Assembly (NCBI RefSeq): GCF_032854445.1
Contig: NC_088306.1
Location: forward strand, 27,251,764-27,315,763
Source of the DNA: Liolophura sinensis
Lineage: Eukaryota > Mollusca > Polyplacophora > Chitonida > Chitonidae
Reading direction: 5' to 3'
DNA: 64,000 bases
The notes under the pieces were generated by a model. That model ran no database searches, had not been told where the DNA came from, and worked only from the letters and a program-made list of their open reading frames with translations. Below, piece after piece: positions 19,394 to 58,600 of this stretch. Made by a program: the position numbers and the translations under genes. The number at the start of each line of letters is the position of its first letter. Within the stretch, counting starts at the first letter, position 1.

Positions 19394-21740
19394 CATTTCA
19401 TTTCATTTCATTTTTTATTCACCACAAACCTTAAATTAAATACATAAGTATGATACATAAGCGATACATTTGGCGAGAATAAAGCTCACAAGGGCTTGTT
19501 CTATCCCATGAGAAGTAGAATGTTATATAAAAGAGTATATACATAGATTGATGGTAATGATATTACAGTGACATATATAACCTTACATAGTAACGAACAA
19601 ATGTTCGCAATCAGGCGGCATAAAAGATATTGGAAACTTTAGGCAGAGGAACTTCAGGGAACTAAAAAGAAATGTGGAATTTATAATACGAAGAGTGGTG
19701 AGTAGTTTATTCCATTCTCGAGGGCAAATTGTTCTTAACGAGAAGTACGATATGTTTGTTCTGTACATAGGTCTATTATAATCCAATCGAGTTACTCTAG
19801 TCACATAGTGATGGGTAGCAGATTGTTTTAACAGATAAGTTTTGAAGCTGGGAGGAATAAGTTTGGGGTGAAAACTTGTCTGCTAAGAGTGATACAAATA
19901 GAATGTTCATCTCTCGCAGTGGTAAGATGGATAGTTGACGGAACAGAGGGGATGTGTGATCATTTCTCTTTGAATGGGTGCTAGTTCGAATGACGCGTTT
20001 CTGCAGGTTCTGTAAGGGTGTGAAATGAGTTCGATATGTATTGCCCCATATAATGTATCCGTATGAAAGGTAAGGATATATAAGAGAAAAATACAGAATA
20101 AATAATGTTTTGTTCTTCACAGAATACTTTATGTGGCTTATCAACCCGAGATTTCTAGACACCTTTGTACTAATATAGTCGATATGAGAAGTCCAGTTAA
20201 GTCTGGAATTGAAGACCATTCCAAGAAATTTAAATTTATGTAATCTTTCTATTTCATTGTTACATTTTTTTAAAAGGGGCGGTGAGCTTACTTTCTTTTT
20301 AGTGAGAGAGGTTATGAGAAGATATTTTGTCTTGGTAATGTTCAGGGACAGGCGGTTGCAGCAGAACCAAGTACATGTATGAAGTTTTTCAAGTTCAATG
20401 GACATAGTATTACAGAGATCATTGTGCTGGTATCATCTATAAACAAAAATGAAGAAGGCTAGATACATGAGAGATATCGTTGATATAAAGAAGGAACAAA
20501 AAAGGTCCTAAAACAGAGCCTTGCGGAACTCCACATTATACAGATTCAGTTGATGATAAAGTGTCAGAAAACGATACACACTGAATTCTATTATATAAAT
20601 AACTTCTGAACTAAGAGTTACTTATACCTCTTAAACCATAGTATTGAAGTTTACGCAAAAGTATGGCATGATTTACTGTATCGAATGCCTTTGAAAGGTC
20701 GAGAAATGTGACTATACTGTACAGTTTGTTGTCCTTGGCAGTCACTAATTTATCATACAATGAACAAGCAGCCAGAGATGTTGAGTGATTTGCTCTGAAG
20801 CCATACCGGTTTTTATCAATCATACCGTTAGTTTCTGCATGGCTAAATACTGCATTTGAAGTTATTTTCTCAAGTATTTTACTGAAACAGGAAAGTACGT
20901 ATATAGGTCGGTAGTTTTCCAGTAGGTTAGCCTCCCCTGTTTTGTATACAGGCGACACTTTATCAATTTTCATACAGTTGGGAACTTTGCCTAATACGTA
21001 AGACAAGTTGATAATTTATGACAGAGGGGCAGAAATGTGATCGGAGACAAGTTCAACGACTGACATTCGAATTCCATCAATACCGCAGAGGCTGGGGATT
21101 TCAGGTCCGAGATAACAGAAGTAACATCACTTCTGGTGTTACATGTGGAAAGGAAAAATTTTTGGCCAATGGTTCGCTTAAGTAATCTGTAAACTGTTCA
21201 TTTACTGCGGGAATTTCTGCGTCGGAACTACTGGCTACAGAATTAAAGTATTAAAGCTGTTCGCTATCGTAGCAGTGTCAGTTATATCAGTACCATTTAT
21301 ATTGAAGGACAACGGCAGTTCTCGAGACTTCGTGCTATTCATTAATTCATTTAAAAGTTTCCAGGCACCTTTAATATCATTGTTTACCTTATCTGTCCTA
21401 AAAGTAGAGTTTTCTTGCAAAGCAAATACTATTGTTTAGCTTGTTCCTGAAGGATCTGTACTTTTTTTCAGATTGTTCGTCTGTATATTTAAGTTATAGT
21501 CAATATAATCTGGTTTTTCTGTTTTCATTCAAAGATAGATGTCAGAAGGCCGCCCGTTACCCACGGTTTTAATGATCTTTTCATGAAATTTGAGTTGAGT
21601 AACGGGAAAACAGCGGTTATAGATAGAACATTCAACTAAAGGCATGATTTACATCATGCCGAGTTTAGAACAGAGTTCCAGTTTGTACTTTCTACTTCAT
21701 CGATAAAACTTTGCTTCTCAGATGCACTGTATTTCCGGTA
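19394..21740 (-). pseudogene. 5'-truncated, broken LINE (jockey/CR1-group reverse transcriptase)
   Basis: On the minus strand, reading 21.7 to 19.4 kb, the fragments follow non-LTR retrotransposon order. A pre-RT spacer comes first, then RT blocks with [19 protein letters not shown] at about 20.9 kb, [15 protein letters not shown] at about 20.7 kb, VPQGSVLGPFLFLLYIND at about 20.5 kb, the catalytic box as FIDDT at about 20.44 kb, and a thumb region with HKFKFLGMVFNSRLNWTSHI at about 20.2 kb. Reading-frame breaks occur at least at 20.4-20.6 and 21.0-21.2 kb. The usual F/Y-A-D-D is FIDD here and lies out of frame with its neighbours. The 3' end is an AAATG-type repeat (19394-19412). No endonuclease domain is present. 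It is a dead copy. Confidence 0.85.
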
Positions 21741-22525: not shown

Positions 22526-22984
<459 letters not shown>

Positions 22985-28447: not shown

Positions 28448-28599
28448 TCACGTCTTCGTCTTCTTGCCCATGAAGTTGAACCAGCTCTTCTTCTTCGTGT
28501 GGAAATGTCTCATGTTCCTCGGAAGTGTTGCAGGGAGATTTCTAAGCATGTCCTTCTGATAATACCCAGCCGTAGACATCCGTCTTCCCACGGGTTTAC
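28448..28599 (-). CDS. RhoGEF last exon, basic C-terminus
   Basis: Acceptor ctttctctgtccacag, entering in phase 1. It encodes [20 protein letters not shown], then a short basic tail [15 protein letters not shown], and stops at TGA 28450-28448. The tail resembles the FW-x-LTPFKK ending of vertebrate members. Confidence 0.85.
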
Positions 28600-31500
28600 C
28601 TGTGGACAGAGAAAGCCAGCAGAATTAGAATTCATGTCAAACAATAGATGTACTTGCTTATACCAAGAGAAACAAAATACCCTAAGTGTTCAACTGTTTC
28701 AACCACCTCTGCAACCAATATTCTGAAATATAGAATAATGTGTTGCAGAGAAATAATCTACACAGTATTATGAAGCGTGCATCTTAAATAACATGAACAA
28801 ACCATTTAGGACATCATCAGTAATTGTATGCATAAATTCCGCTGAAAAAACTGCTTTAGTTGTTAAACAGGTTGAAGATTTACAGTAGCTGATTTTCAGG
28901 ACCAAATTTAAAATATGTTGCTCAGACTACTTATCTGATAGATGTGATATGCTGTACACAAAAAACTTCCCTGATATGGCTGCAGTGAGCTGGTGGATAC
29001 TAAGTGGGCGAAGGAAACTGATTAGCAGGTGAGAGCAGGTGAGGAAACCAAATAGCAGGTGAGGAAACTGAGTAGCAGAGAGGAAACTGACTAAGACTCT
29101 GAGAAGAACCCACACGTAACCTCTCGCACACACCCACAAAGCCACTTTAAACCATGCCCTCTCACTGGTTCAGACCTTATGGACTCCAGCAAATAGCCAA
29201 CCACTTAGCCAACAAATAATTATTACACCAACTGAGGTGACCTAATAAAGGTAATACACTTGGGCCAAAGCTTTCAACAACATAAATGCTTTTTAGCCAT
29301 AGACACACAGCTCTACACTCGATTCAAAGTTTGACACTGGAAAGTCAGGGTGTGATTGTGGTATTCAAGCCACTTTAGAGGGAGATAATACGTATTAGAC
29401 ACTAAGGACTGTCAAGTTATCAAGAAATCTGATTAGAAGATGCTATAATGCAAGAAAAAGTTCTAGGGCAACGTGCAGTTTAGAGAATAATTGTGCTTTC
29501 GTTGCACATCTGCATTCATTTCAAAAGATTGCGAATATATTAAGTAAGTAAATCCATCATGAGAGATTAGATAATAATTTTGAGTTAATAATAAAAGTAT
29601 AAGTAAGGATGAGGTGCATACTAGTAAAATGAATAACTGTGTATGGAATAGCACAAAAATATGAAGTGCGTTCTGAATTAATTTTGGATATCAAGACTGT
29701 TTTGATGTTTGTAACATCAATTACTTGTACAGGTATTTTCAAAGAAAAAGAATTGGCTACTTTCACTACAGCTGACCATGCAGGATCGAGGGCCATACCA
29801 ATTTTTTGGAATGAATGACTATTACAAAATTCAGAATACATGTATCTTTGGTCATGCTTTCAAACATATGCCACACATCACAGAATCTGGGATAAAAATA
29901 AAGTTCAATAACTACCTCAAAAGGTTTGATATGAAGTTCATCAATATAGGTAATATGGGTTTCCAGAGTGCAAAGCAGTAGGAGATCTATGCATAAATTT
30001 ACTCAGAGCAAAAGAATTCATCAAAAACTGATCAATAAGATTGGCTAGCATCATGCGTCTCATGCATAACTTACACAGAAGGCCACATTAGCATTATCGT
30101 TCCACAATCCGATTTAATAGCACTAGAAGACCTGTGGAAGGTGAAGTGGGATTTGGAAATTTCATGTCATCTTAAATGTAGGCTATGTGCATTTTTCATT
30201 GTCACCTTTTGGCAGTATGTCTAAAGTCTAAAGCAAATAACAAAACCCTTAGCGTGAAATTATGCTAATACATACTTTTATAATAATGGCTAAAATGGTG
30301 GTGTGCTGAATAAAATCAAATCCACTAATATTTCAGAAATGAACATTCAAATCAGTGAAATTCAGTGGTACAATACAAGAACTGATAAATATGAATACTT
30401 GTGCTAAAGTGACACAAAAAAGTGATATTTTCTGAATCCTCCGAAAAGAGTACATTGTAACTCAGACATAGAAAATATCAATATCGCCGATATCTTACCT
30501 TTTGGTTTCTCTAACTGAGCCCTGGATTTCAACACTGCTGTCTGGACTTGTCTTGGAATGGTAAATTCTGTCAGAAATGAAAAAGAAAACAGTTTAATGT
30601 ACAAGACACAAACAGAAGTATTCATTTTACTAGTGGTAGTGCTGAATTAAAGAATTAGTGCTATTACCAGACAAAGGCTAATGCTACACTTAAATTGTTT
30701 ACCCAATAAAATGGAAAGACACACATATTTTACACACGGCTGTGCGATATTTTTACTTTTTAACTCAGCTGAACATAAACTATACAGCTAGATGATCATT
30801 CAGATAATCCTGGCGTAATGTATATAATGCTGGGAAAAGTTTTGAATGTTTTAGTTTAGTTTCCGCGGCTGCACTCACCATTTTCTTGTCCTCTTTGACC
30901 TGCTGTCTTTCCTGAGAGAATGCCCGAATCCACTTTTTCTCTCTCTGCGGGAGTCTTAGAGGAGAACAGGAACCACTTGTCCTGAGATTTGTCATGTAGT
31001 TTCCAGCCGTTCTTCACATTCACATTGTACTGGAGATCTGCATGAAAAAAAATAGTCATGTTACAGAAATAATACATTGTGATGTCAGAATCAAAATATA
31101 ATCTGCATGAATATATGTTCCACGGGTGCTTCATTGAAAAAGACTTCAACACAGGCTAATTGTAGGACTAAAACAATTTTCACCTGATCAGTCACCTAGC
31201 CTTTACACCTATCATGTACTTGTATGTAGAAACAGTTTAAATGCAATTTAAGTAAATTACTATTTTCAGCTGAATAAATCTTTGGGGTGAATTGCAAGGA
31301 TTAAAAAGGATTAAGGTGGTTATCTTAGAACTACATATTTGGCTCCGGAAAAGGCCAATCAATGCATTTAAACTTTCCAAGCCTTAAAAACCTGCATCAA
31401 CCGTACACACACCAGAAATGTACACAAACATTTAGTGAAGATTAAATATCATTCAGGAGAATGACTTACCTTTTCCATCAGGAAGCATGATAAGATCACA

Positions 31501-34500
31501 ATGGTCCAGTAAAACTCTTCCCTTGTAACAAAATCCATTCCGTCTAAGTAAATCCTAGAAAATACGTAAGACAAGTAGCATTTAGAAAAAAAGTACAAAC
31601 ATGCAAAGTTAGATCAGTGTTGCAAGGAAAATTATTAAATGTAAATTTTCCATTATTCTATTTGTCATCACTGTACGAGATGTTACACTCCTGGAGATTA
31701 GGAGTCTATTGGCCAGAGTGGTGGTGTATGGAGGTCCTTCCAATATGGCCGCACTTTCATGACTGAACGTACCATGCTTGGCAACAATACACTAAAGATT
31801 AACATGTGGATATTTCTTGGACATAGCAAGTTTCCATTATACAAACTTAATACTACATCCAGCTCGGCTTGTTGATTAGGAAACAAATCAGGTTGCATGA
31901 CACTCTGGCTTGTAAACACTGCTTGGCTTCACGAAGTCAGCAAAAAAAACACCAAACACAAAAGAGGTATGGAAATCACATTCAAAGCTGATCTGACACG
32001 CGAGATGAGATTTGAACATCAGGATTTTGGCAAGTGTTTATAAACCAAGGTGTTAAGACACATGTGTACTAACAATGTGAGTGTGTGTGTGGGGGGGGGG
32101 GGGGGGGGTAGGAAGAGGGGGGGGTGCAGAGAGGGGTGGGCATTGTGTCTAGCTCCAAACAATCCTCAGCTAATTAGAGGTTTCAATTTTGTCAAACCAC
32201 TGCACAAATTCACATGCACAATTTATCAAGATTTCTAAATAATCACATTTTATAAAATCTTTAAAGTATGTACACTGACACGAATACCATACGAGTAAAC
32301 TGATTTTTGTGACTTACCTTTTTGCAGTAGATGAGCTGATGGTCAAACAAAAACAAAGTCCTTTCTTGAGATCGTCCACTGCGGTTAATCTTATGAGCTT
32401 CACCCGACGTTATTAATTCTGAACTCAACTCGAGTAAATCTGAGCCCTTTGAAAACAAGAAAAACATATGAAATGTGTGAGATACACTTACAATTGGCAA
32501 AAGGGTGGGATGTTTGTACATTAGTTTCCAAGAGAAAACAAAAGAACATCTTATCTCTTATCATGGGAGTAATCAACTGACTGAAAATTTAATGCAAAAC
32601 TGGATGGTTTCTTAAATTCTAAGGAAAAAGCCACAGTCCAGAGTTTAGACTAAAGTGCAGACTCTGAGAATTGCATTGTGTTTGAAAACCTTGTAAATCT
32701 TACCTCCCAATCTTCCACACTTTGTTGCCATGCCGATATTTTGGCAATGCTTTCCATTTTGCGTTTGCGCTCATTGATAAGGCATGCAATCCTCTTCATT
32801 GCGTCCAGCGCCTGGCAAACGTTGTCATAATCACTGTGATCGGGATCCGTAAATTTGAGCAGTTCCGACAACTGCAGAGGATATTTGCAGATTTTCTGAA
32901 CAGGCGTGAGAAGAAATCCTTCCAACGGGATCTGGATCATTTCTTGAAGAAGTCTGCAAGCCTGAAATTTTGTTTACTGGCCATTAATACAAGCGTGGAA
33001 AAGAAGTAAAAATGAAAACACATAAGAACATAAATATATTTTCTTACTCACGACAAATTCACCTGTATTGTATATGAACTATGTTTATAAACTGAAAGGA
33101 GAGAAAATGTTTTCAAAACAGATTTTAGGGCATTTCCTCTGATTTACACAAACCTACAACTTCACATATCTGCCTAAATATAAAATAGTGCACAAAAAAA
33201 ATTGTTTTACATCAAAATCGCATCCTACCTCAAAGAAATGTCGATATCGTTTATTCCTGTAAAGCTCCTGTAGTTCCTTGCAGGCATCAGGGTGGTTGTT
33301 GCAGTAGTCGGAGTAAATCTCGAAATCTTTTTTCTGAAAACATGCAAATTATTCAATTATTCATAAGACTCCTGAAATTTCCTTTTTTTCTTCTTGATAA
33401 AAAAGATGATAAATACAGTTATTGCCCTTGTTCCAGCAGGTTTGAGCAGCTCTAAGTATAAAAAAATCAAGAAGTAAGAATATGTTATTCAAAACACAAA
33501 TGTGCCTTTAGAAAACAGCTTTGCATGAAAATTTTGATCTCCTTGAATTATTATTCTTATATTTGCATAAAAAGTCAAATGAGGACTTACACTGTTCAAG
33601 AAACACTGGCCAACTTCTGTCAAGTGAGGTAAACCTGAGTTATAGCTTTTCTCCAGGTCTGTCACAAACTGCTTCGAAACATTGTAAATGTCTTCCAGGT
33701 TCCCAAACAAGATTCGTATCCTGTTTTCACTGAACATGGCGGGATGGCGTCTGGCCTGATGGATGTATCCCTGTGGGTGAAAAACATAAATAATTAATTT
33801 TAAATCTCGACAAGTTCAGAAGATTGGCATTTGAATGTATAAACTTTGCTAGTTGATATACACATAAAAATCTCTCATTTATAAAGCCCTGAAGAGATTA
33901 AACACAACTGGGACCAAAACTACCATTTTCAAAAAAAAAAAAAAAAAATTTAATTCATAACAGCAACAAAATCAAGGCATGTCAATCTTACCTCAATAAC
34001 ATCATGTAAATGCTTGACATAATCTTTCTCGGCCTGCAGGATTTCGTTAATAACATTTGTTCGTGCCTGTTCACGACTGACTCCCCCCGTGGATGTGAGG
34101 CGCCGTGATGGTTCGGGACTCGGGAACGCCGTGTGCATGGATTCTATCGGCTGAGCCAGCACCTCCTCTTCTTCTAGCTGACCCTGGTTGGCTCGCAACT
34201 GAAATCCAATCAGAATTGAACCTTATTAGATTGCACTGAAGTGACCAAACAATGAAGAGCTGTGCATTTTTATTGAGTTGGAAAAATTGTTTTACACAGT
34301 ATAAAATAAAAAACTGCTGGCATGGAAAGCATAAAAAAGCACAAATTCCTAATATCTGCCTCAGCTGCAGGATGGGGCTTCACATCGTCTCGCACTAAAT
34401 CCCATGTTAATAGATAGGAGGCCTCTTTGTAAAAACATTTTTTCTGACCAACAAAACACCTAAATCTAGCCTAAAACTGAATTAAATCAGAATAACTTTA

Positions 34501-37500
34501 CTGCTAACTTTAGATTTCAATGTTTCTCCGCATGAACTGATTTAACGGACGAACATGGAATTTGAACATCAAGCAAGTTTCTTACCCTGACAAAAGCAGC
34601 TGGAAACCATCCTTCTCGATCATCGACGGCGCCCCACCACCAGTCTTTGTCTGCGGTGTCTGTGACCTCAATCACATCACCGGCGCGAAAGCCAAGCTCC
34701 TCGGGATCCATGGTCACATGGTCCCACAATGCTTCAGCGTACGTCAAACACTCTTCGTATGGTTTCTGAAAACAGTAGAAAGTAAGAATTTTAAAAACTC
34801 TGTCCTATGGTAATGAACAAGGCCTGTGAAGCTACAAATATTACCATGTGTCAATAATAGGTAGTATTACTTCAGAAATCTTAAATTTAAAGGTAATTCC
34901 TTTAGGAAATTCAACTCAAATCTTTAACCGTCAATCAACTGATGTGCGAAAGACTGGTGACTAAAATAATAGTAAGAACATAGATTACATATGCAAATAA
35001 ATCCGAACTTTACCAAAAACCAATCTAGTCCATTATCTGATGCGGCTAACTTCTTGGAATCGATATCAAATCCATAATTGGTCAGAAGTGTAACTCTGAT
35101 CTTGGTATAAATATCATCAGCTTTGCTCAATCCAGCTAAATCCAGGGAATTCATTCTGCTAGAATAGTTAATGGCTTCTTCTGGCAAAATGTACTAGAAT
35201 CCTACACAGTTTTGGGGTAACTTGGACAGCTCACACTTTATGCAATACTTATATAGACTTGCTGGGCTGTAGAGCATTTTGATTGGCCAGCCAGTTTTCA
35301 ACATTATGCTAATTTCAGGTGAGCCAAGACCAAGCTATTCAGTTTTAATCAACAGTTAGCTTATGACACAGGTGCAGAGTGATAGCTTGCATAGACACTC
35401 ACTTGTCACCTGTACAGGTAGAGGTAACTCTTAAGTAACCCCTGCTGTGATTGTGTATTTCTAGTGTTCACAGGTAGGCATTGTTTTCTAATCACACCTG
35501 GACAAAGCCTAACAGACTTAAGACCTTCAGATCTAACTCTGGTTTCTGTCACTTGTTTGGCTTGTGTTTATAATAATTAATATTTTACTAATTTAGACAG
35601 CCTTCTGGTCATTAAAATACTTAATAGGTCAAGGTTTTTTAAAACATGACCCCTGCAGGTAACCTGCTGAGAAACAAGCAACCAATTACTGTATGGTCAA
35701 CTGCAATTGTCTTGTCAAAGCAACACAAACATATTGTTGTATTTTATTTTCTTTCATTCATTAACATGTGAAATAAAACAATGCTAAGTCATTGTGAATG
35801 TAGCGTAAGAGTAAAGTAGTTGAGATAAAAGAAATGATTTTCAAACATAATTTTTTTTTCATTTTCACCTAAATAGAATCACTACAGATTTTTTGGTGAT
35901 ATTTAATTAATTCCTTATCAGAAAAAGTGAAAGGTTAGCATCAAATCCACCATTTTAAGACCATTTTGTGCTCCAAAAGTGCATTTTACACACCAAATTT
36001 TAGGTGAAATAAGCAGTAGTTAAATTTGTAAATCTGTTCCTTACAGTATTTGCATGTTGTTGGTCATACTATAAAACAATGAAGTTATCTGAGCACACAG
36101 CATTTGTTTCACAAGGTCTGCTAGGGCACTGAATCAATGGCATTGTTAGGGGCACAGTCAAAAACTAAACATGAAGGTCTTGCATTTGCACAAAATTCAC
36201 AGGAAATGACAGTATCCACTTACACCTGGCCACAACTCTGATTTTGTCATGAAGTAAATGTATGATGTATATGTTTGAATGCAGTGTATACAGGAAGTCA
36301 ATAGTCCCGCTTATCTACTCAATACATTTTTTATCATTTCCTTAGATTAAATCCCAAGCAACTTATCATGTGCTCATTTGTAAACAGCATTTAAATATCT
36401 CAGGTACATAAGGTACTCATCAAAATACAACATCATATTACATGTTACATGAAAATGATTTCATAATTTCCTTGTTCCTGTATGTTCTTAGTGAGCTCAC
36501 TTGTTTTGTCACTAAATTTCACTATAAATATTAATTTATACTTAAGGAATATTTCATCACAACAATTTCAAACACATAGCAGAATTAAGATCCAAGGCAA
36601 AGAGTATTACATTATTTATTTCATATTTTTTTTACTGATTACTTTTTTTCAGGGTTAACTGACATAATATCATCAAGAGAAAACAACTACAAGACTTAAA
36701 ACTTTTGCAACGAGGATAACCTTCTGTTCTTCAACAACAACAAAATTAAGGTGTACTTCTGAGTGTTTGCCAACACTCTTTAATCCTTTTGCTTGCATGT
36801 GTAATTATGCATCAACAAAGCCAGACAACCTCAGTATCAATAGCAGATCAATAAGTGATCTGTGAGTCACTCACACAGGGGGGTCTCTAAGAATCAGATT
36901 TGTTGAGTGACCACCATCACTCAATGGCACAATGACTTCTCCTTCCATTATTCCACTAATTTGTGTAACAGTTCACTCACAAAAAGCCCTTATATAATTC
37001 GCATCAAGTTTGATAGATGCATGAGAGGATTTCATTCTCCTCAAAACCAAGCTAAATGTGAGATCACATATGCCACATCAACATCTTAGAAGTCTTGTTT
37101 AACCTGAATTTAGAACAGCACATTAACACTTATAGCGTACATCTGTAAATTCCACGTAAGATCATTCCCTAAGGTAAAGCACTCCATGTATATGTGACTT
37201 TCTTACAAACTGTTAAAGTCCCTGTTTTTCCCCTAGCTGCCACCCTCCTCCCCGTTCCTGGCGAGACAACATCTCAAAAGTTACTTTATTTGACCAAACA
37301 ATTTGCCTTCACATGTGCCTTTATAAAAAACAACTAGGTCATAAAATATTACTTTAAAGCTACGAAACTCACAGTTTTCCAGTAGGATATTGTCCTATCT
37401 CCCAAACCAACTTCAAAATACCTTTTTAAGGTCAATGGAACTCTCAGAGCCAAGCAAAATAACTAATTTAGCCATAGCCAGAATTGTAGGTAATTTCAGT

Positions 37501-40500
37501 GTTTGCCCCCCACAGCAATACTGTAGTTTTCATGACTTTAGACATTTCATGTATCTTACAGTCTGGTGACCATCTCTCCACGACATCTTGGATACCTTAC
37601 CTCTGTAATACTGGTGAGTGCGACATGTGAAGCCCTAGTACTGTGACACTTGTCTTTAACACCGATCTCCATGGAGTTCTCTGATTCGTCTGACGAATCA
37701 TCTGAGTAATGATCCGGAGAGCAATAGTTTCCTGATTCGTCAAAACCTGCAAAATACAGCAATAACTCCAGCATATACAAACTTGAGTAGATTCAATTAT
37801 ATACTAGTATTTGACTGATGAAAATGAAAACACCATACTTTAACAGGTTTCTTTTCTGTGATGGATGTCGTGTTTAAAAATGAATGAAACCCGATGGAAG
37901 CAAAAGGAAACCAGCATACCAGACCACAGCACATCTCAAACCTCCTGACATAAAGCTGCAGCCAATCAGGCACGACGTTGTTCCTGACATAAAGCCGCAG
38001 CCAATCACGATGTTGTTCCTGACATAAAGCCGCAGCCAATCAGGCACGACATTTTTCCTGACATAAAGCCGCAGCCAATCAGGCACGACTTTGTTCCTGA
38101 CATAAAACTGTAGCCAATCAGGCACGACGTTGTTCCTGACATAAAGCCGTAGCCAATCAGGCACGACCTTGTTCCTGACATAAAGCCGCAGCCAATCAGG
38201 CATGGCGTTGTTCCTGACATAATTTATTTAGTTATTTATTTGACTGGTGCTTTACACCATACTCAAGAATATTTCACTTATATGACAGCGATCCGCATTA
38301 TGGTTGGTGAAAACCGAGCAGAGCCCGGGGGGGAAACCCACGACCTTCCACAGGTTGCTGACAGATCTTCCCACGTACGACCGGAGATGAAGTTCCTGAC
38401 ATAAAACCTCAGTGGTCAAAGGTCAGCATTCTGAGCAATTGGAGGAAAACCCACTTACAGCCTATCTCGACTTAACTTTGTCAAAGATTCAAACTTATAA
38501 CATGTACATGGAGTCCAATTCTTCAACCTTTTCAATAGCCTATGAAGCCAACATTTTGAAGAACTCACATGTATTGTATGTCACATGAAAGAATTATACG
38601 GTGTAAAGAAATAATTTGCACAGTTTGATGAAGCTTGCATCTGCAGTGACACAAACAAATTTAGTGTCATTTTCCTAATAAATGTATGCATAAATACCAC
38701 TGAAAAAAGGGATTTAGTGGTTGAAGAGGTGTTTGGTAAATGTACTGACATTGCAAATACACATGCCACACATACAGTGTCATCCATGAAACAAAGCAGT
38801 CTTACTTACATTCATAATTTACAGAGCTTTTCGGAGAAATACAGCAGGGTAACCTAAACATGCTCAAATCTACATAGAGAATTCGCGAATGCAGTAAAAG
38901 TGCTGCCTCCAGGAGTCAGTTTCCATCGTTACATGTTTTCTTCACCATCATTTTGCTACAAAAACACCTAACGATCCTAACTGAATTAGGTTGTTATCAC
39001 AGCTTGACAGCGTTATTCACTCAGTCTGCCATGTCTCCTGTATAACTGTTGATAACATCCACCTACATTTACAGCCCAAACAAACAAAGCTTCTCAGCTG
39101 ATAACTTATTACCAAACCACTGATGCATACAACAGGCAGTGTTTGAAAATTTATCTGTTGTTAGCCGTCAAGAAAGCGAAAGAAAATTTGAGAGGTGCTG
39201 TAGTGTTTAAGGCCATCATGACTGCTAATATTTGAACCATCAAAGAAAAACTTATCCGTATTGGTAGTTACTTACTGTATGCCCAAAGCCCCTTCTGTTG
39301 GGTGGGATCAATTGGCAAAATAATGTAAACTAAACAATTTTTATGACTGGCCTCATGCTTTGCACACATGCACTTCTGTACACAATGGTCTAACACAGGG
39401 TCCTTCAATCCCCCTCTGAGTGGCTCACTCATTACAAGGGGTCACTTACTTATGAGCGGGAACTAGAGCATCAACTCAATGTACACATCAGGCATTATGC
39501 AGTAGGAGGTGCAGCCGTGACTGTACTTGTAAATTTATGTGTGCATCAACAGTGGATCTGTTGTGTCAAACATCGCTACATGTGACTCGCAGGAAGAAAT
39601 GAATAATACCCTAATTGTCTTCAGTTATAGTTTTAGCTGAAAGCATTTCCTTGTATCACTGAAAAAGGGAATCTTCTCAAATTAAGCTCAATACTGCATG
39701 ATATTTTTACCTGATGACTTCATAATAACAATAATAATAAAATGGTTATACATGTAATAATGACTAATGACAAAGATATCTGGCAAATTATACGTGGGTA
39801 TGCGGGCTACGGCACTGAATACGAGTAAATATGTTTGAAATCAGTAATTAGCATACATGTTTTGGTTCATACATTTACACAGTGGATTGTTAAGAGCTAT
39901 TTTGAGATTTGCAGACTGTTTCGACCCATGAAAATGCAGATTTGGACAATCTGAACAAGGTGACAGAGATAATGGCATACATAAGACTTCAGTTTAAACA
40001 CTAAAAATTATACTTAATTAGCAGTTGCCTTGTGAATGGAATTGGCTCGCCAAGAATAATGATACTTTATAAAACATGCTCGGTTGCATTATTACCTTGT
40101 ATGCATTATTTCCCTGTATGCATTATTATCCTGTATGCATTATTACCCTGTATGCATTGTTATCCTGTATGCATTATTACCCTGTATGCATTATTACCCT
40201 GTATGCATTATTTCCCTGTATGCATTATTACCTTGTATGCATTATTTCCCTGTATGCATTATTACCCTGTATGCATTATTACCCTGTATGCATTATTACC
40301 ATGTATGCATTATTACCCTGTATGCATTATTACCTTGTATGCATTATTTCCCTGTATCAATTATTACCATGTATGCATTATTACCCTGTATGCATTATTT
40401 CCCTGTATGCATTATTACCCTGTATGCATTATTTCCCTGTATGCATTATTACCCTGTATGCATTATTACCCTGTATCAATTATTACCCTGTATGCATTAT

Positions 40501-43500
40501 TACCCTGTATGCATTATTACCCTGTATGCATTATTACCTTGTATGCATTATTTCCCTGTATCAATTATTACCATGTATGCATTATTACCCTGTATGCATT
40601 ATTTCCCTGTATGCATTATTACCTTGTATGCATTATTTCCCTGTATGCATTATTACCCTGTATGCATTATTACCCTGTATGCATTATTACCCTGTATGCA
40701 TTCTACACTGTAACAGTTCTAAAACTGGCTTAATTTCATCCAACAGTGCTGAAATTCCAAAATCACACAGAACATCTAACCAAACAATTTTTGTTTTTAT
40801 CTTAGTCCTATACTAACTGACCCCCAACCTCCTTCTCCAGTTTTTATTTATTTCCTTATTTGATGCCATACTCAAGAAAATATTTTACTTATACGATAAC
40901 AACCAGCATTATGGTGGGAGGACACCCAGAGCCCAGGAGAAACCCATGACCATCCACACGTTGCTGACAGGCCGTCCCAGGTATGGCCAGGGAGGAAGTC
41001 AGCATGACTTGAACTCCTCGTGACTGGATTACAGAGAGGCTCATTGCGCCGTGCTGGCGAGATACAAGCCCACAGAGTCCTCCTTAAAGCTTTTATTACT
41101 ACCTTTCCGGAACACAGTACTTGTACATACATTACAATGTATATAAATATTCCAGGACTAATATATAACAAGCTCCAAACTTTGTTAATGTTGTCCATAC
41201 CAAAAAAGCTGGTGATACGCTTCCGCCGCCTCAATTTGTCCAGGTTGACCGGCATGCTGAGTGACCGGTGCAGGGTGGCCTTCTTAGCCGTGTCGGGCCG
41301 AGGCTTTTCTTGCCGACTCTTGATAGGATGTGGAGTGGACATCTGCAACAAAATCAAATTTTAAAAAATATGTGTATCAAAATCATTAATGACCACAAAA
41401 ATATATATAGGTATCATAGTTACCCGAAAGAAAGCAACTAATGAACATGGAATAACAAAATTATTTAAACGAATACGAAAAACTGAAAAAAAAAATTCTT
41501 AATTAAAATTATTATCAATTATTATAACATATTCATGTCTTCTGGTTTCTGGAAACCAAGCAACCAATAAACAATTGCAAAAAATATAATGAATACAAAA
41601 GACTGGGAAAACTTGTAATCACAAATAAAATCACCATGTTTGACATGATAGGATTTTTATCTTTATGATAATCGCTGATCTTTGATAATCACTGGATTAT
41701 CCCTGGATCAGTGGTCTATCAGTGTATTTTGTTGGAGATCCTTGACCCACAAGGTCATGTATTAATTTGTTGCAAACTAAGATGTCCGCGAGTCTTTTTC
41801 AGACGCACATGCCGTACTACTGTAATTCTTCGACATATTCTCATGTTTTCATGGTGTCTATTCAAGCATATTCTGACCGCATTATTCTGTGTAGACTGAG
41901 AACACTATGCTTTTCGTGAAGCCCTGAAATTGGTCAATCCAACCAATCTATAAATAAAGGTGCATAAATTGCAATAAAAGTTGCCCTTTCATACACGAAA
42001 AGGTTGAGGAACTAGGGTAGGTCATTATTCTGTGTATACTGATAATATAATATATTTTGTGAAACCATGAAACTGAACAACCGTATGAATACAGTTTTGT
42101 CTCAAATCAAACGTGTGAAAATACTGAGGAATTAGATTCAGTTTCCAGCACCATTAATCCTAACCATGTCACAGAAATAAAATCCTCCATAAAATGTAAA
42201 ACATGTCACCAATCCAAATATATATTTATTTGACTGGGGTTTACTGCATTTCTCACCGGCCCCGCTAGCAAAGTTGGTAGAGCATCCGCTTTGCGAGCGG
42301 CAGATCCAGGATCAATCCTGGGTCAAGTCACACCAAAGACCTTAAAAATCGTTAGGCGTTCAGCATGAAGGGGATAGTGCAACAACTGCTTGACTCCTAT
42401 CAGTATAATGACTCGGGCGGCTTACTTGCCTTCGGTAAGTCGTCTCAGTGAATCACCAATACATAAAAGAGCGATGGAAGAGCGATTACATGCACTCTAA
42501 AGATTCCTTCGTCGTCATATAACTGAAAAATTGCTAAGTATGACATTAAACCCCAAGCACTCACAGACTCACTACTCCATTTCTCAATAATATTGTACAC
42601 AGGCAGGTTTACTGGTGTAAGAGAGAGAGTTAAGTGTATATGGGTATACAACCATCCCCCTTTGGTCATGTCGGCAGATACTTTGTGCATGGTTAGAGCT
42701 AACACAAACAAAATCACTATGCCATCATTATTCTTACTTCCAACACAGTTATTCCTACCTTTGGTTTTGTTTGGAGAAAATAGAACAAAAATAAATCTTT
42801 CTCACAAATCATATGTAACGTAACAATTTTGTCTACCTGTCGGAACCACCGTTTCACTGGTGTCAGGAAATGAACGTGCAAAGGTACACTGGTTTCTGAC
42901 ATCGTGAACACGGTACACTCCTTCATTGCGAACTTCTGTCACTTAAAAATCTTTCAGAGTTGAGTCCAACACTCGCTGTAGATATTTCAGCAAGCTGAGG
43001 TTAAACTGGGTAGTCACTGATCCTCTCTAATCCACACAAGGACTCAGCCCTGTATTATAGCAAAGCATTTCCCGTTCCCTCACTGAAATGGTGTCACAAG
43101 TCAGCTGTGCTTAACACTTCTCTAATGTCCTTTTTAATTCAGGTCATCATCATTTCCATTAAATAACCATGCATGTGAAACCTTCTGAGGTACACGTATA
43201 TGTACTTGGCACATGTCCAAGGAACACAACATATGATTGTTCTCTGTTCACAACATTAAAACTCCTGCAAAGCTCAAAAGCCTCGCACAAATATGCGTTC
43301 ATTTAACTCTTTATGAAGCATATTTGTCTGCTTTCTCACAGGATTCAATTTGTGCAAAGCAGTAAGAACGGTCTAACATCAGATCCTGGTACGTGTAGCA
43401 GTTAAGAAGAGATACTTTTTGGCCGCACATGTAATTTCCCAAGTCTCGCCACACGAGTGCATTTCGCTGTTTCTCCAAATATCACCACTGCACAATTCCG

Positions 43501-49655: not shown

Positions 49656-52600
49656 TATATATATGAATGATCTCATCTCACTCCCAACAGTGCGTTCCCA
49701 AAGGCTTTTAGTCATAAAACATTTCTTTGTTACTGAAACTTACATTTTGTCAGTAGATTACCTTTCTACCTTCCAAATCTTTCTCAATACAACTAAGGTC
49801 AATAGATCTCTCAGAATGAGGTAAAATGTAGGATTTTCTCTTGGATGAAACTTCAGGTAATTCACCTAATACCTGTATACACATTCATGTATATACAGCT
49901 CAGAAGGACTCACCCAGATCAGAATTGGTTCTTTCTGTTCTTGGGCGCCGTGGGCGGAGCTGTCGGCTGTCAAGCCCGTCCTCCTCAGCAGAGGTGTCCA
50001 GGTTATGCGCCCATCTCACGCTGCAGTCAGACTTGGGGCGCTCATGGTGGCGCCGGGACATTTCTCGCCGTATGACTTGCTGACCCTAGTTAGCAAATGA
50101 AAGATGATAGTGTTGGTTTTTATGCATGTATGAAAATATAATTGCATATAAATTATTAATTAAGGAGTTACACCACTGCCAAAACCTCTGCATCTTAAAT
50201 TAAAAACCAGGGTAAAATGACAAGGTCAACATAGTCACAGTTGGTTCCCTAAATTGTACAAAACTGGCATTGTATAAAAACTTCTGTTGTAAGATTCAGA
50301 GCATCCTACAGAAACAAAAAGTTTTTGGTGGCTTCCACTTTTACATGGCATCATTGTTCATGTACAGCCACAAATCAAATGTTACTATGCTTTAATCCAA
50401 ATGCTGTTAAAGCCATTCTAACATAAGTGTAGGGTCCTGGCAACTGCACGGCGCAGCAGGACTGATTCCACCACCACAAATCAAATGTTACTATGCTTTA
50501 ATCCAAATGCTGTTAAAGCCATTCTAACATAAGTGTAGGGTCCCGGCAACTGCACGGCGCAGCAGGACTGATTCCATTTTACTGATGTCAACCACATCAG
50601 TAAACATCACAGACATTGCCCTACAATCAATTTGTGACGTAAAAATGGCTCAAGGTTCTGCATCACACTATAGCTTACAATAGCTTACACCTGACAGGAG
50701 TAAAAAACGAGCCACCTCCCTACTCTGCACCTGTATCCCTTCTCCCTTACTTCACCTGACATCTGCTGGATACAGTGTACTGCAACAAATCACGTTTGTC
50801 TAACTGGTACAATGGCTTACACCTGACAGGAGTAAAAAACGAGCCACCTCCCTACTCTGCACCTGTATCCCTTCTCCCTTACTTCACCTGACATCTGCTG
50901 GATACAGTGTACTGCAACAAATCACGTTTGTCTAACTGGTACAATGGCTTACACCTGACAGGAGTAAAAAACGAGCCACCTCCCTACTCTGCACCTGTAT
51001 CCCTTCTCCCTTACTTCACCTGACATCTGCTGGATACAGTGTACTGCAACAAATCACGTTTGTCTAACTGGTACAATAGCTTACACCTGACAGGAGTAAA
51101 AAACGAGCCACCTCCCTACTCTGCACCTGTATCCCTACTCCCTTACTTCACCTGACATCTGCTGGATACAGTGTACTACAACAAATCACGTTTGTCTAAC
51201 TGGTACAATAGCTTACACCTGACAGGAGTAAAAAACGAGCCACCTCCCTACTCTGCACCTGTATCCCTACTCCCTTACTTCACCTGACATCGGCTGGATA
51301 CAGTGTACTGCAACAAATCACGTTTGTCTAACTGGTCTTTGTATTTATTTATTTATTTTTTTGATTGGTGTTTTACCACATACTCAAGAACATTTCACAT
51401 AACACACCACAGCAGCCGGGTATTATGGTGGGAGGGTAACCCCACGACCATCTGCAGGTTGCTGAAAAACCTTCCCACGTACAGCCGGAGAGGAAGCCAT
51501 CATAAGCTGAACTTGAACTCACAGCAACAGCATCAGTGCAAGGCTCCCAAGTCACTGTGCCGTGCTGACGCTCTAATTACTTGGGCCACTACCCCTACTG
51601 GTCATTCTATTTATTTATTTATTTATTTGATTAGTGTTTTACGCCGTACTCAAGAATATTTCACTTATACGACGGCGGCCAGCATTATGGTGGGTGGAAA
51701 CCGGGGACACAGCCCGGGGGAAGCCCACGACCATCCGCAGGTTGCTGAAAGACCTTCCCGCAAACGGCCGGAGAGGAAGCCCCCATTACATCACCCATTA
51801 CACAAGTAGTGTAACTCCGAAAAACGAAAGCTTCATTTTGACTCAATATTTCAGCATTTTATGATGATACACTTGTGTATTACGTGAAACATATCAGTGG
51901 ATCTACTGTATTACGTGAAACTTATCAGTGGATCTACTGTATGACATGAAACTTATCAGTGGATCTACTGTATGATGTGAAACTTATCAGTGGATTTACT
52001 GTATGATGTGAAACTTATCAGTGGATTTAATGTATGATGTGAAACTTATCAGTGGATCTACTGTATGACGTGAAACTTATCAGTGGATCTACTGTAAGAT
52101 GTGAAACTTACCAGTGGATCTACTGTATGACGTGAAACTTATCAGTGGATCTACTGTAAGATGTGAAACTTATCAGTGGATTTACTGGATTACGTATAAC
52201 TTATCAGTGGATCTACTGGATTAGGTGAAACTTATCAGTGGCTCTACTGTATGACGTGAAACATATCAGTGGATCTTCTGCATTGTGTGAAACTTATCAG
52301 TGGATTTACTGGATTCTGGTTACTCAGATACACGTTTACATGTTGACAGCGTAGCAAGAAGAAATCTAAAAGCCAACAGAGTTATCCTCTACATCTATTG
52401 TAATGTATTGTGTAGATTTACCCCTAAACAGTTATTCAAATTATGAACCTACTTGCATAGTGTAAGACTTAAAAGAGAACTTTGTAAACGCCATTTAAAC
52501 CCTAACCCTAATTATTCAACCTTTTCTCGTCTGAAAGAGCAACTTTCAGTGCAATTTATGCACATATTTAATTGGAATTTGGAGACAAAAATAATTTTAA

Positions 52601-55600
52601 GGCTTCACAAAATGTGCAATTTTATCTTTACGTGAATAAACACCTTGCAAACATAGGAAAGCATGGGGGAATTGCAGTAAATGTACAGGTACATGCTGTA
52701 GGCATACCCACCTCTACCTGGAGGTCCACAATACACGTATGTACATATCCAACAAGACCATGGAAGACTGTGAAAGTAGTATAAACATTCTGCCCAGACG
52801 TTCCTTGCACCTTCAGCTAATCCAATACCACACCTGTCTGACTTTAATCCATGTAAGTATAATACCTACATGTACACTACAGTTTGGTAAACAGCAGACC
52901 ACCACAGAAGATTTGTGTTTCACAAAGGTAAGTTATACCTGGCACATCACTCAGGCTTAGGAATAAAGTGGATAAGATTTACAGCTGTCATATGACTGGT
53001 CAAGCATGTCCACTCTAATATAATACCTCCCCCCTCCCCCTCCCAACTTCCTTGGTCACTACCCTAATTGTACAGTCTGAGGGTGAACATCAGTGTAAAC
53101 TATATTAGCAAGCCCCCCTCCCCCCCTCTCCCAGCAAACACCTGGCTTAGAAGCCTGGTCTTACCCATCTTATTACACACCCTCTCTCTTCAAACATGCA
53201 CACTGTACTTCATCACAAATTTCCTCTATCATTAGTAATCTCAATATGAGGAAATCCTGTCAAGGCAATCTTTGAACATTTCTTTGCTGGACGTAACCTG
53301 ACCCAATCAAAATAGATGAGGTACCCGTATCTCGCTAAAAGAATTTTTTTTTTCTCCAATTAATAAACAAAGCCACGTTAAAGAAATTAATATTTGATGA
53401 AAAAACAACTTTCTTCTGGAATCTAAATGAAAGGATAGCACTTTTCTGAGGTCAGTAAACTTACTCACAACAAACACATTCTTAACGATGGCCCTTCATT
53501 ATACATTTAAGTACTTCCTTCTATACCTATTACCCAGCCTAATCTTCATTAATCTTCTTTTAGAACATTGTACATTAATTATATCTCTTCCTAATACCTC
53601 CTTTTTTTGTGAAAATCGTTCTCTGATGCATACTGAAGGCTGTCAAAACACTACGGTTCACTTGCTCTAGATCTGACAGGAAAAAAGTCTACGTTAACTG
53701 AGCAGTAAGGGTCCCACCAGTAGAAGCCTACCTGGATTTCCCAGCCAGAGATGAAGGGAGATAACCATGTATGGCATTTTGATTTTAGTCAAATGATGTA
53801 CCACCCACACTCCTTGATGCCTACTTCCAAACAATATTTTGCTAAAATATTTGCCAACAGCATTTCAACAGTATACGTGTATCATCCACAAATGTCATGA
53901 GCTTACTTGTTGGGACAAACCTGACAGCGAGTTTGTTACGGGCCACATATCCGGGGAACCCGTAAAATTGATCACCGTCATCAAAGTGACATATTCTTGA
54001 GTATGATCCAAAACAAAAATTAATCCTGCGTAAATTCATACTTAGAAGGATATCTCACAAAAAGCTGATGTCCTTCCATGTACATGTAGGTCTGTTGTTC
54101 AGGGAATGGTTCATGTTACTGAATGACAGGAAGTCAAATGTGTGAATCACTGTGCAACCGAACAATGCCAGACTTGAGGACGAGCTACACACAAGGTCCA
54201 AACTTATGTTATATGTTTTCTGAACACACGTACACCGATAATTGTGACATACTAAAGGAAAGAACAAACTGGTTCATAGCTGTCTTGATACAGGCGGGAA
54301 GAAATTTTACGAGTTCTCAGTTGAACAGAGAGACAGAACAACTTATCATAGAACTGCTTTTCAAACTTAATAATACATGATAATCACTAAAACATTTATC
54401 TGAAATACAGATTATAGTATCCAACTTGCCTTGAGTGACTCGTTGCTGGAGTGAGTGCTGGAATCGTTCTGAATGCCACTGTCGTTGCTGTTGCTAGAGG
54501 TAACATCCCTGTGTAGGAAATGATTCCGTAGTGGATCCATGGGTACACATTCCCCACTAGAGGGCGGTTTGTCACTATCTGAGTATTCCTCCGTGTGGGA
54601 CTGGTCCGTAAAATGCACTGAAAAAGAGCTGCTCCGAGAGTAAGGCTTTTGCCGAGAGGGCAGAGGTGGGCATGGCGTTGGACTGTGAATAGGTGACGCG
54701 TTTAAGGACTGAATACTGATGCTGTCGTTTTCATTGTCATTGTCGTCATCTGAGCACATGAACGTATTGTATTTTACAGGAATCTGGTCCACAAGCGACG
54801 CGCGCTTTTCACCTCGGAAACCAGTCAATTCACCAGCTGTTAAACTGCGCCTGAGGCGTCGGCTTGATGCGTAAGGAGATCCAGGTACTGATTCGATGTC
54901 GCTGTCTCGCTGGAACTTCGCTAACGGTGCTTGTTCCACATTGTTTTGATCATTATGGACACTTTCGTTGTCTTTCTGAGTTTCAGCAAGTTTTATGAGA
55001 TCTTTACTTCCACGTCGCAGAATGGATTTCAATGCTGGGAACTTGAAAAATGATTGGTCCTTGGACCCGCTGGTGTTTCCCACGTCTTTCCTGTCTTTGT
55101 CACGATCGTTGAACGATCGATGTCGCCTAAGCATACGCTTGATTATACCAGGGCTTTTGGCTTCTCTCGTTTTCTCGAAACTTCGGTCACTGCTTCCTGA
55201 GCTCGTGAACACCTCATCATCGTAACTGCTCTGCTCTTCCCAAATGGGGGAGGAAACATGCGAAGCAGCTGAAACCGCCAATGGAATGGCTTTCTTTTGA
55301 GCAGCGTAAAAGCTGGGATTGCGCTGCAATCTGGGACACTCTGCCATAAGGCTTGTCTGACAACGACCAATTGTATGATATTTCAGGGCCTCTTGATCGT
55401 CATCTATGTATTCCTCTGGACAATTAAACGGGATGTCTACCATGCTCTGTTGCCGTGGCAACACAATATGATGGACGGGCCCTGTGAAAGGTGACCATGG
55501 ATCCTCGCCTGGAGAGAGGAGAGCCGTTGCCATGGCATTCTGGTACGAAGATGGCCGTGCCGGAGTGAAGAAGCCTTCATTTTGTGAAGCGGCGTTCAAA

Positions 55601-58600
55601 TTTCGCCTTTTTTGCACGCTCGATGAATCAGGCGACCATTCAGGGGTTGCAAAAGGGGTGTGACCCATGTCAGGTTCGCACAAGTCATCGTCATCATCGT
55701 CGCCCTCATTCGCATTAACAATGATTCTCGGAGAACGAGATCCTAACCCATTCACATAAGCTTCGTTGTCTTGCGTAAAGTCCGCAGTTGGCAAACTAGC
55801 ACTTCTACGTAACCGTGTTCGAGGAGATTCAAATCCTGGTTCAGCACGACTGGCTGATGGGGTGTAAAATGGTGAACTGGAGTTCTCGCTGGTTGCGATC
55901 AAGGTCGTATCATTTTCATCTTCTTCACCTTGGTCAAATGACAGCTCTGCCAGTGCCTGAAAAGATAAAACACAAAACATGTAGATTTCATTTACATGTA
56001 AGTATCTTAAATATACATACTTTATATTAATTATCTACTCAAATTAACAAAACACACCTGGCTCGTGGAAGCTGCTTTTAAATGCAATGCAGCAAGATTA
56101 CAAACCTCAGCAAGGTACAAGACATGACTTGTACATTTCTAAAGAATGTGAAATGCACTTCTAAGAAAATATATGCACAGTCAAAACAAACAGTCAACCC
56201 AGTAGTAAAGCATGACAAAAATCAATCTAGCACTACACATTAATCTGTATCAACCTGAAATTTCCCTGCATGTGTCAGCAAGTACATATACATAGCCACG
56301 AGAACACGAATGTAAAGGGAGATAACCCACGCCATGCTGTGTTCCACACTAGACTGTAGCTGAAGAACAGATCAATGGAATTAATGTGAGCAGAAATATC
56401 TGTATATGTGAATTAAATGTTTAATGTCCACTTTTAGACTAAAACATTTTTTTGACCCTGATTTTCCACTTTTTAATTATCTCCAAACTAGGAGAAAGGG
56501 GAGTTTGAAGCGTATTTAACACTAAACAGTATTCTTTGTCACTCATCAACTAGATCAATACTGACTTTCCATTTCATCAGTATACATGTATGTAAAAGAC
56601 TCTACATAGTAACAATTTCATCATGAGAAACTGTCATCCGACGCAGGCTCTGTTTCACACACTGCTTGTAGCATTACAGGATTAAAATACTACAGCAACC
56701 AAATGACAGTGCTACACTATAGTTACACACGCTAGCACTGTAACCACTACTTCACAAAAACAGTTTCACTTATCAGCAAGCTTGTTTGAAATCTTGATAC
56801 TGCAGATATAAATATGCATGGATATGTAGGCTACAAATATGAATTTCACTCTGCTAGAATATTAAACAGTGACACCATACAGGTGCACAAGTTAATATTG
56901 AGCCAATTTTAATACACATACATTTTCCTGTTTGGTGACAAACACAGATATTACTGTGTAAAATCTAATTTGCTGATCTCAAAACTAAATTGGTGATATG
57001 TTTGTATCAACTAAATGTTATGTTACGCAGCATGCAGGTTCGTTTTCCGATATAGTAACACTGTGTATAGATGTGTATATTTCTGAAGGTAAATAGCACA
57101 GTGAATACACACATTGCGCTATTATTTCACATCAAGATAAAACAATGTGCAACTATTTCACATCAAGATAAAACAATGTGCTACTAATTTACATCAAGAT
57201 AAAACAACGTGCAACAATTTTACACCAATCTACACAGAAAGGCTTCATTTTCAGATTAGCAGAATGACATAGCTGGGTTTTCTTTTAATATATTGCAACA
57301 TGCACAAAAATGTAACAAGTCTGAGGTTACTTGATCAAAGTTTATGATGATTTATGACAATCTGTACTAGCTTGGTACCTTCTAGATGAAAGCTCTATCT
57401 ACATAATACAGTAGGTTCAGACTAGTATAGAGATTTAAGCTTGACTAATGTGTAGCTTGACTAATACGTAGCTTGACTAATATGTAGCTTGACTTATATG
57501 TAGCTTGACTAATGTGTAGCTTGACTTATACGTAGCTTGACTAATGTGTAGCTTGACTTATACGTAGCTTGACTAATGTGTAGCTTGACTTATACGTAGC
57601 TTGACTAATGTGTATACACTACTGAAAAAGTGAAGAACTGGGATCTCTGTGTTAAGTACTTGTACACCATAAATGTTGCCACGCGTTCTGAATGGATTAA
57701 CAGAAACTCAAACTGCTGCCAAAATTTGTGTACACCTTTACCTAAGCCATACGACCATTCAAGACAATACACATGGGAACAACTGGCTACAACAACCGAC
57801 GATGAGGTGAAAGATAAAAATGGACAACAATGGATGATATTCTGAGAAACATGCTTGAAAACAACCGAAAATCAAAATATTATTTTCTTGTGCCCTTTTT
57901 ATTTTTATATCATTAATTTCCTCATTATTCAGACTGTAGATGCTTTCACCTTTGTGTCTATGCTAGTAAAGCCAGTGTAGGCACGAGTTAAATGGCCAGT
58001 ACCCAGCTACTCTTCAGTTCTTGACTTGGTAACATAAAACTGATACTCCTCAGAGCAGCATTAACAGATTGTTGATCATGCATACAGCTATGTAAATATA
58101 ACCATACCCCCATAATAGTCCGTAAGTGGTCACTGGGTCCCATCCCCTATGGTTAGAGCCGTACTATCCAGTGTCCGTGTAAATTATGTACGCATGTTTG
58201 AACATCTACTTATTTTCCCCCGTCTTTGGACACACCTGTAGCTCATTACGGAGGTCACTCACGAAATAGCACACCTAAGTTCGACCTCTGTCTGGACATA
58301 CCCGTATACTATAGCTGGTCAAGAAACCCTGGTTAAGGTTGACACCTAAAAATAAACTCCCCATTGTCTACGATTTGCTGCCATAAAATTGCAATTAGTT
58401 CAAAGCTTGATCTTTTACCTTCATGATCACATGGGATGTGCCTCTGTTTGTTTAATTTCACCTGACAGAAGAGCTCTTTGTCAAGTCACTCCATGGAGGG
58501 GATTGACCCTGTGGAAGTTGCCCACTTCATCCCACCCACCTCATGTCCATTATCTATGAGCATAGCCATTGTCAATAAGTCGTTTTTGACACCCGAGAAC

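Follow-up and report, generated by a model that had tools for sequence, protein, structure and literature searches.

The C-terminal helix of the PH domain in a RhoGEF gene, located on the minus strand of the 64-kb stretch of DNA analysed here (the window), is encoded out of frame. Within exon 31037-30879, the literal frame matches the protein family up to approximately TPAEREK, whereas the helix, followed by KKM, is encoded in the +1 frame only, starting at position 30932. Phase is preserved in spite of this, and the literal end of the exon joins the next two exons in frame up to the TGA at 28450-28448. Both features had been described in the first-pass annotation, which read the helix in the +1 frame after TPAEREK and regarded the exon length as leaving the phase needed downstream, and both were confirmed by the comparisons reported below. 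The most likely cause of this arrangement, as a matter of judgement and not of computation, is a pair of nearby consensus indel errors, one adding and the other removing a base.

The SH3-DH-PH half of the RhoGEF gene spans positions 34765 to 28448 and was assembled from ten exons placed by eye using GT donors and AG acceptors (Table 1). The 1,522 nt obtained by joining these exons represent a single open frame of 507 codons without a stop, followed by TGA. Pfam models matched the joined exons in the order SH3_2 (1.6e-11), RhoGEF (6.3e-48) and SOS1_NGEF_PH within one protein, and SH3, DH and PH in sequence is the domain order of the Asef/collybistin family, including Asef itself. The best PDB sequences were five chains of ARHGEF4 and ARHGEF9/collybistin (E-values between 1.2e-91 and 3.7e-89, with the +1 helix in the query), the next family being P-Rex2 (9.7e-54) among the matches listed; among these structures, the DH-PH part is nearest to Asef and collybistin, ahead of the other Dbl proteins. 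As judged from its sequence, the gene is an ordinary Asef/collybistin-type SH3-DH-PH RhoGEF. No relatives were found at an E-value of 1e-3 among 287 pattern-matched stretches of prokaryote and virus contig collections; some of the patterns in two of these scans cross exon junctions and may miss DNA, the others being single-exon patterns. In Asef, an APC-binding region precedes the SH3 domain. An open frame of 540 residues on the minus strand (54412-56034), Ser- and acidic-rich by eye and with no Pfam match at E 0.01, may belong to the RhoGEF gene as one of its 5' exons.

Table 1. Coordinates of the RhoGEF exons and of the features within and next to the exon carrying the out-of-frame helix.
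Feature	Positions	Strand	Basis
SH3 exon	34586-34765	minus	splice sites; Pfam SH3_2 1.6e-11 on the joined translation
Exon with linker and start of the DH (RhoGEF) domain	33992-34198	minus	splice sites, joined frame, Pfam
DH exon	33591-33770	minus	splice sites, joined frame, Pfam
DH exon	33229-33333	minus	splice sites, PDB comparison
DH exon; identity 66% (collybistin), 69% (Asef)	32704-32961	minus	splice sites, protein comparison
PH domain exon	32318-32446	minus	splice sites, PDB comparison
PH domain exon, phase 1 at end	31470-31554	minus	splice sites, joined frame
PH exon, 159 nt, phase 1 in and phase 1 out, containing the out-of-frame block	30879-31037	minus	
Interval with one base more than the homologous frame, CCCGCAGAGAGAGAAAAA; the A5 run is one candidate	30934-30951	minus	breakpoint scan
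18 codons of the +1 frame, C-terminal PH domain helix	30879-30932	minus	PDB comparison, word scan
Interval with one base fewer than the homologous frame, GACAAGAAAATG ahead of the donor	30879-30890	minus	breakpoint scan
Donor GTGAGT, best near the exon end, score 5.5	30873-30878	minus	donor matrix
Next exon, in the phase set by the literal exon 31037-30879	30499-30567	minus	splice sites, joined frame
Final coding exon, ending in the stop TGA (28450-28448)	28448-28599	minus	splice sites, joined frame

Several other features were observed in the window. An intact histone H3 open frame of 136 codons is located on the minus strand at 22526-22936 (Pfam Histone, 3.2e-48), and reverse transcriptase fragments occupy 19797-21015 on the same strand, with an RVT_1 match (2.3e-16) on 20614-21015; the part at 19800-20432 gave no Pfam match and resembles, by eye, the 3' portion of that element, which would be of the non-LTR type. 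A 17-bp tandem array of 36 copies (40085-40702) leaves three forward frames open (242, 216 and 247 codons) and represents a trap for ORF callers. Two adjoining tandem arrays of long period, at 50368-50576 (106 bp, 2 copies) and 50676-51336 (132 bp, 5 copies), match at 98-99% and contain no slipped block.

Exon 31037-30879 (minus strand, 159 nt) is bounded as cag/ATCTCC...AAGAAAATG/gtgagt, and the opening D of its literal frame is split over the junction. Compared with the PDB chains, the 18-codon word of the +1 frame scored 53 against Asef (8/18 identical) and 63 against collybistin (10/18), whereas the literal word reached only -2 (3/18) and -11 (1/18), respectively. The two strands of the window contain 127,892 words of 18 codons (mean score -42, s.d. 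16), among which the +1 word ranked first with a summed score of 116, the runner-up achieving 38, while approximately 5,600 words lay above the literal word (-13). The +1 helix match far exceeds chance. Furthermore, the +1 block retains 7/7 of the columns common to Asef, collybistin and this gene (W, A, F, E, R, V and D), which were picked by construction as the columns where all three proteins agree. Only one set of exon matches was obtained, and neither these nor the six-frame word scan revealed a second copy of the exon or of the helix in the window.

Codon usage points in the same direction. The +1 block scored 8.7 bits. True-frame reference windows, which were scored by a codon model trained on themselves with the helix block held out, averaged 6.5 (s.d. 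3.7), and shifted windows -2.4 (s.d. 4.2); the literal block, with -2.2 bits, looks like a shifted frame. The corresponding values for a larger training set, which contains the 540-codon open frame of putative coding status, were 6.1 for the +1 block, 5.1 for true-frame windows, -3.0 for shifted windows and -1.2 for the literal block. Because its codon usage looks coding and the shared residues are kept, the +1 helix frame is still selected, or was until recently. In an out-of-frame scan allowing one block to be read in another frame, the score of exon 31037-30879 rose from 115 to 248, as against a gain of 12 when the other shifted frame was used. For the neighbouring DH-PH sequence, scanned as segments of 141 and 47 codons, the gain was at most 14 and 24, the higher value stemming from a 3-codon block, and no comparable out-of-frame block was found in these 188 codons. 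The scan covered exon 31037-30879 and these two segments; the exons for SH3, the linker, the early part of DH and the tail are all open in frame.

The PH fold has been described as a beta sandwich with a C-terminal helix as its cap (PMC4704004). Going by sequence profiles only, the +1 reading would give the complete fold including this helix, and the literal one would not. With the literal residues in place of the +1 helix, the SOS1_NGEF_PH match scored 57.0 instead of 68.6 bits and ended 8 residues sooner, and the general PH model gave 21.6 instead of 35.1, which is under its cut-off of 25.1. Likewise, the PH part reached 111 instead of 143 bits against collybistin (4mt7) and 116 instead of 141 bits against Asef (2pz1).

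The exon aligns with both vertebrate proteins over 53 gapless columns; therefore, its length is as expected and the two shifts cancel. The twelve best pairs of breakpoints scored between 243 and 248. Their first breakpoints extend from the CCC codon at 30951 through the AAAAA run (codons 29 to 35 of the exon peptide), and their second breakpoints from the codon following GAC (CAA, 30888) to the junction, with best scores of 246 after GAC, 244 at the last exon codon and 248 at the junction codon. Both breakpoints are intervals, not points, and the spacing of the shifts amounts to approximately 45-70 bases, corresponding to an out-of-frame block of 15 to 25 codons. The literal tail QEN-E-FTI aligns with QET-G-FSI of Asef; this literal QENE and the shifted KKM fit similarly well, so any position from approximately 30890 to the donor is a candidate for the missing base. 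The first-pass annotation had placed the two shifts precisely, namely at an A5 run (30938-30934) to be shortened to A4 and at the G run of the donor (ATGG reduced to ATG). Because the intervals are broad, these sites are two options among several: the A5 run is one candidate within approximately 30951-30934, and the donor G run gives way to the whole interval from approximately 30890 to the donor.

Alternative splice sites were scored using splice matrices built from the eight other donors and the ten acceptors of the RhoGEF gene only. The standard donor (30878-30873) is the weakest of the nine in the gene, the other eight scoring between 6.2 and 12.6, each left out of its own matrix. In total, 43 out of 625 donor/acceptor pairs past the helix start link the helix frame to the frame of the next exon without a stop, as would be required if a single indel had occurred and the second shift were mended by splicing through a non-standard donor or acceptor. 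However, the best of these pairs, which uses a GC donor at 30815 and adds intron-coded residues, totals 7.1, far under the 16.3 of the standard pair; donor 30875 with the standard acceptor (1.1) and the standard donor with acceptor 30541 (3.1) are also in phase. Moreover, none of the 43 in-phase, stop-free pairs undoes the first shift, for which an indel would still be required, and this explanation is regarded as the least probable of those weighed here. Two opposite shifts of one base each are still the simplest reading. A mini-intron inside the exon (GTGGATT...CTCAG, 22 nt), noticed by eye, was dropped, as it deletes the conserved WIRAFSQ and is very short. On the minus strand, the helix frame remains open for 32 codons beyond the donor (30783-30878) and then reaches a stop; therefore, a retained intron would end the protein there. 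Programmed ribosomal frameshifting would need two opposite shifts in one exon, and we know of no such case.

Two errors of the consensus probably account for the pair of shifts. The assembled sequence would carry one extra base within approximately 30951-30934 and one missing base within approximately 30890-30879 of the same exon, and the animal itself would have the standard PH helix in its true sequence. The +1 helix, the unchanged length of the exon and the undisturbed phase downstream were observed directly, whereas placing the cause in the consensus rather than in the animal is an inference. Errors are favoured because the helix segment is better conserved than the remainder of the exon (8 and 10 of 18 residues identical versus 8 and 13 of 35), because the old frame of this segment shows no damage, and because the placed gene is otherwise intact. 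Several observations speak against errors. No general excess of indels was seen in the window, and the coding sequence checked, namely the histone H3 frame and the other placed RhoGEF exons, is open. Long homopolymers (16-23 bases) have survived, while the runs that are candidates for the shifts do not exceed A5. Furthermore, of nine tandem arrays found, seven were checked, and six of these seven (2,680 bp) contain no slipped block at a fixed offset, whereas the array at 37943-38222 does; these arrays are a weak control, because their copies may be homogenised in nature or in the assembly. Under a low uniform error rate, two errors so close to each other would be unusual.

The sequence might instead be correct, and the two indels a real compensating pair of one base each, present as a segregating allele or as a young, species-specific change; this is the main alternative, which we consider unlikely. 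Such a pair would rewrite at least 15 residues of the PH helix, leave the remaining protein in frame and probably deprive the PH domain of its capping helix. The open frame, the exactly restored phase and the lack of a comparable frame break in the neighbouring coding sequence are in agreement with it, and events of this kind have been documented at spacings of 7-99 nt (PMC8935012, Table 2) as well as reported among mouse cDNAs after confirmation by the genome (PMC1449882). However, a real pair would strike a conserved structural helix, whereas the pairs surveyed in PMC8935012 are described as favouring weakly conserved regions, and it would have to be a young event. After a shift, the helix decays fast, because the third codon positions of the literal frame are the second positions of the helix codons: in a rough simulation, beginning with the present helix and permitting literal-synonymous changes only, the chance of keeping 7/7 shared residues was 0.53 at 0.1, 18% at 0.3 and 0.06 at 0.5 substitutions per site. 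The resulting bound on age is loose and, by itself, compatible with a fixed change at the species level. Replacement of the PH capping helix by a real young pair, in an otherwise conserved exchange factor of the Asef/collybistin type, is rated slightly lower still; if true, the species or allele would make a GEF with altered or lost PH function and an intact catalytic DH domain. It is very improbable that the locus represents a diverging or decaying duplicate of an intact copy elsewhere in the genome. The other placed exons and splice sites are intact, no stop codon occurs, and a second copy is absent within the window. Of the causes offered in the first-pass annotation, errors and a real allele stay the main options, while a diverging copy found no support inside the window.

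If the consensus is in error, a gene caller would yield a full-length, plausible protein with a wrong helix, and net-neutral pairs of indels of this kind evade checks that look for stops or broken frames only. If the pair is real, it would represent a rare case of compensating frameshifts in a conserved structural helix.

Among known proteins, Asef (ARHGEF4; PDB 2pz1 and 2dx1) is the best PDB match, with 56% identity over DH-PH when the helix is taken in the +1 frame (E 1.2e-91). Asef shares the SH3-DH-PH order with this gene, shows no gap in the 53 aligned columns of exon 31037-30879 and possesses the PH helix WLKAFAREREQVQ, which the literal reading of this gene lacks. Collybistin (ARHGEF9; PDB 2dfk, 4mt6 and 4mt7) likewise shows 56% identity over DH-PH, and its helix WLRAFREERKMVQED matches the +1 frame (10/18 over the block), the literal reading again being without it. 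Compensatory frameshift pairs were surveyed by Biba et al. 2022 (PMC8935012), whose account gives 624 genes with candidate compensating indel pairs among 36,491 vertebrate and insect genes; in 27 of the 624 the pair was present in several species, and 6 passed all filters, the unconfirmed candidates not being demonstrated, in that account, to be errors. Like those pairs, the one described here consists of opposite 1-base indels less than 100 nt apart with an open frame between them, and it agrees, relative to the vertebrate proteins only, with the definition of nearby indels of at most 2 bases that restore the frame. The surveyed pairs are reported to tend toward poorly conserved regions, a tendency rather than a strict criterion; the segment studied here, known from one assembled sequence, is well conserved (8 and 10/18 versus 8 and 13/35). 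According to Table 2 of the same paper, two of the six pairs comprise a 1-base deletion followed by a 1-base insertion, and the order here, an extra base and then a missing one, is the reverse. A real compensating pair would belong to this known class of event.
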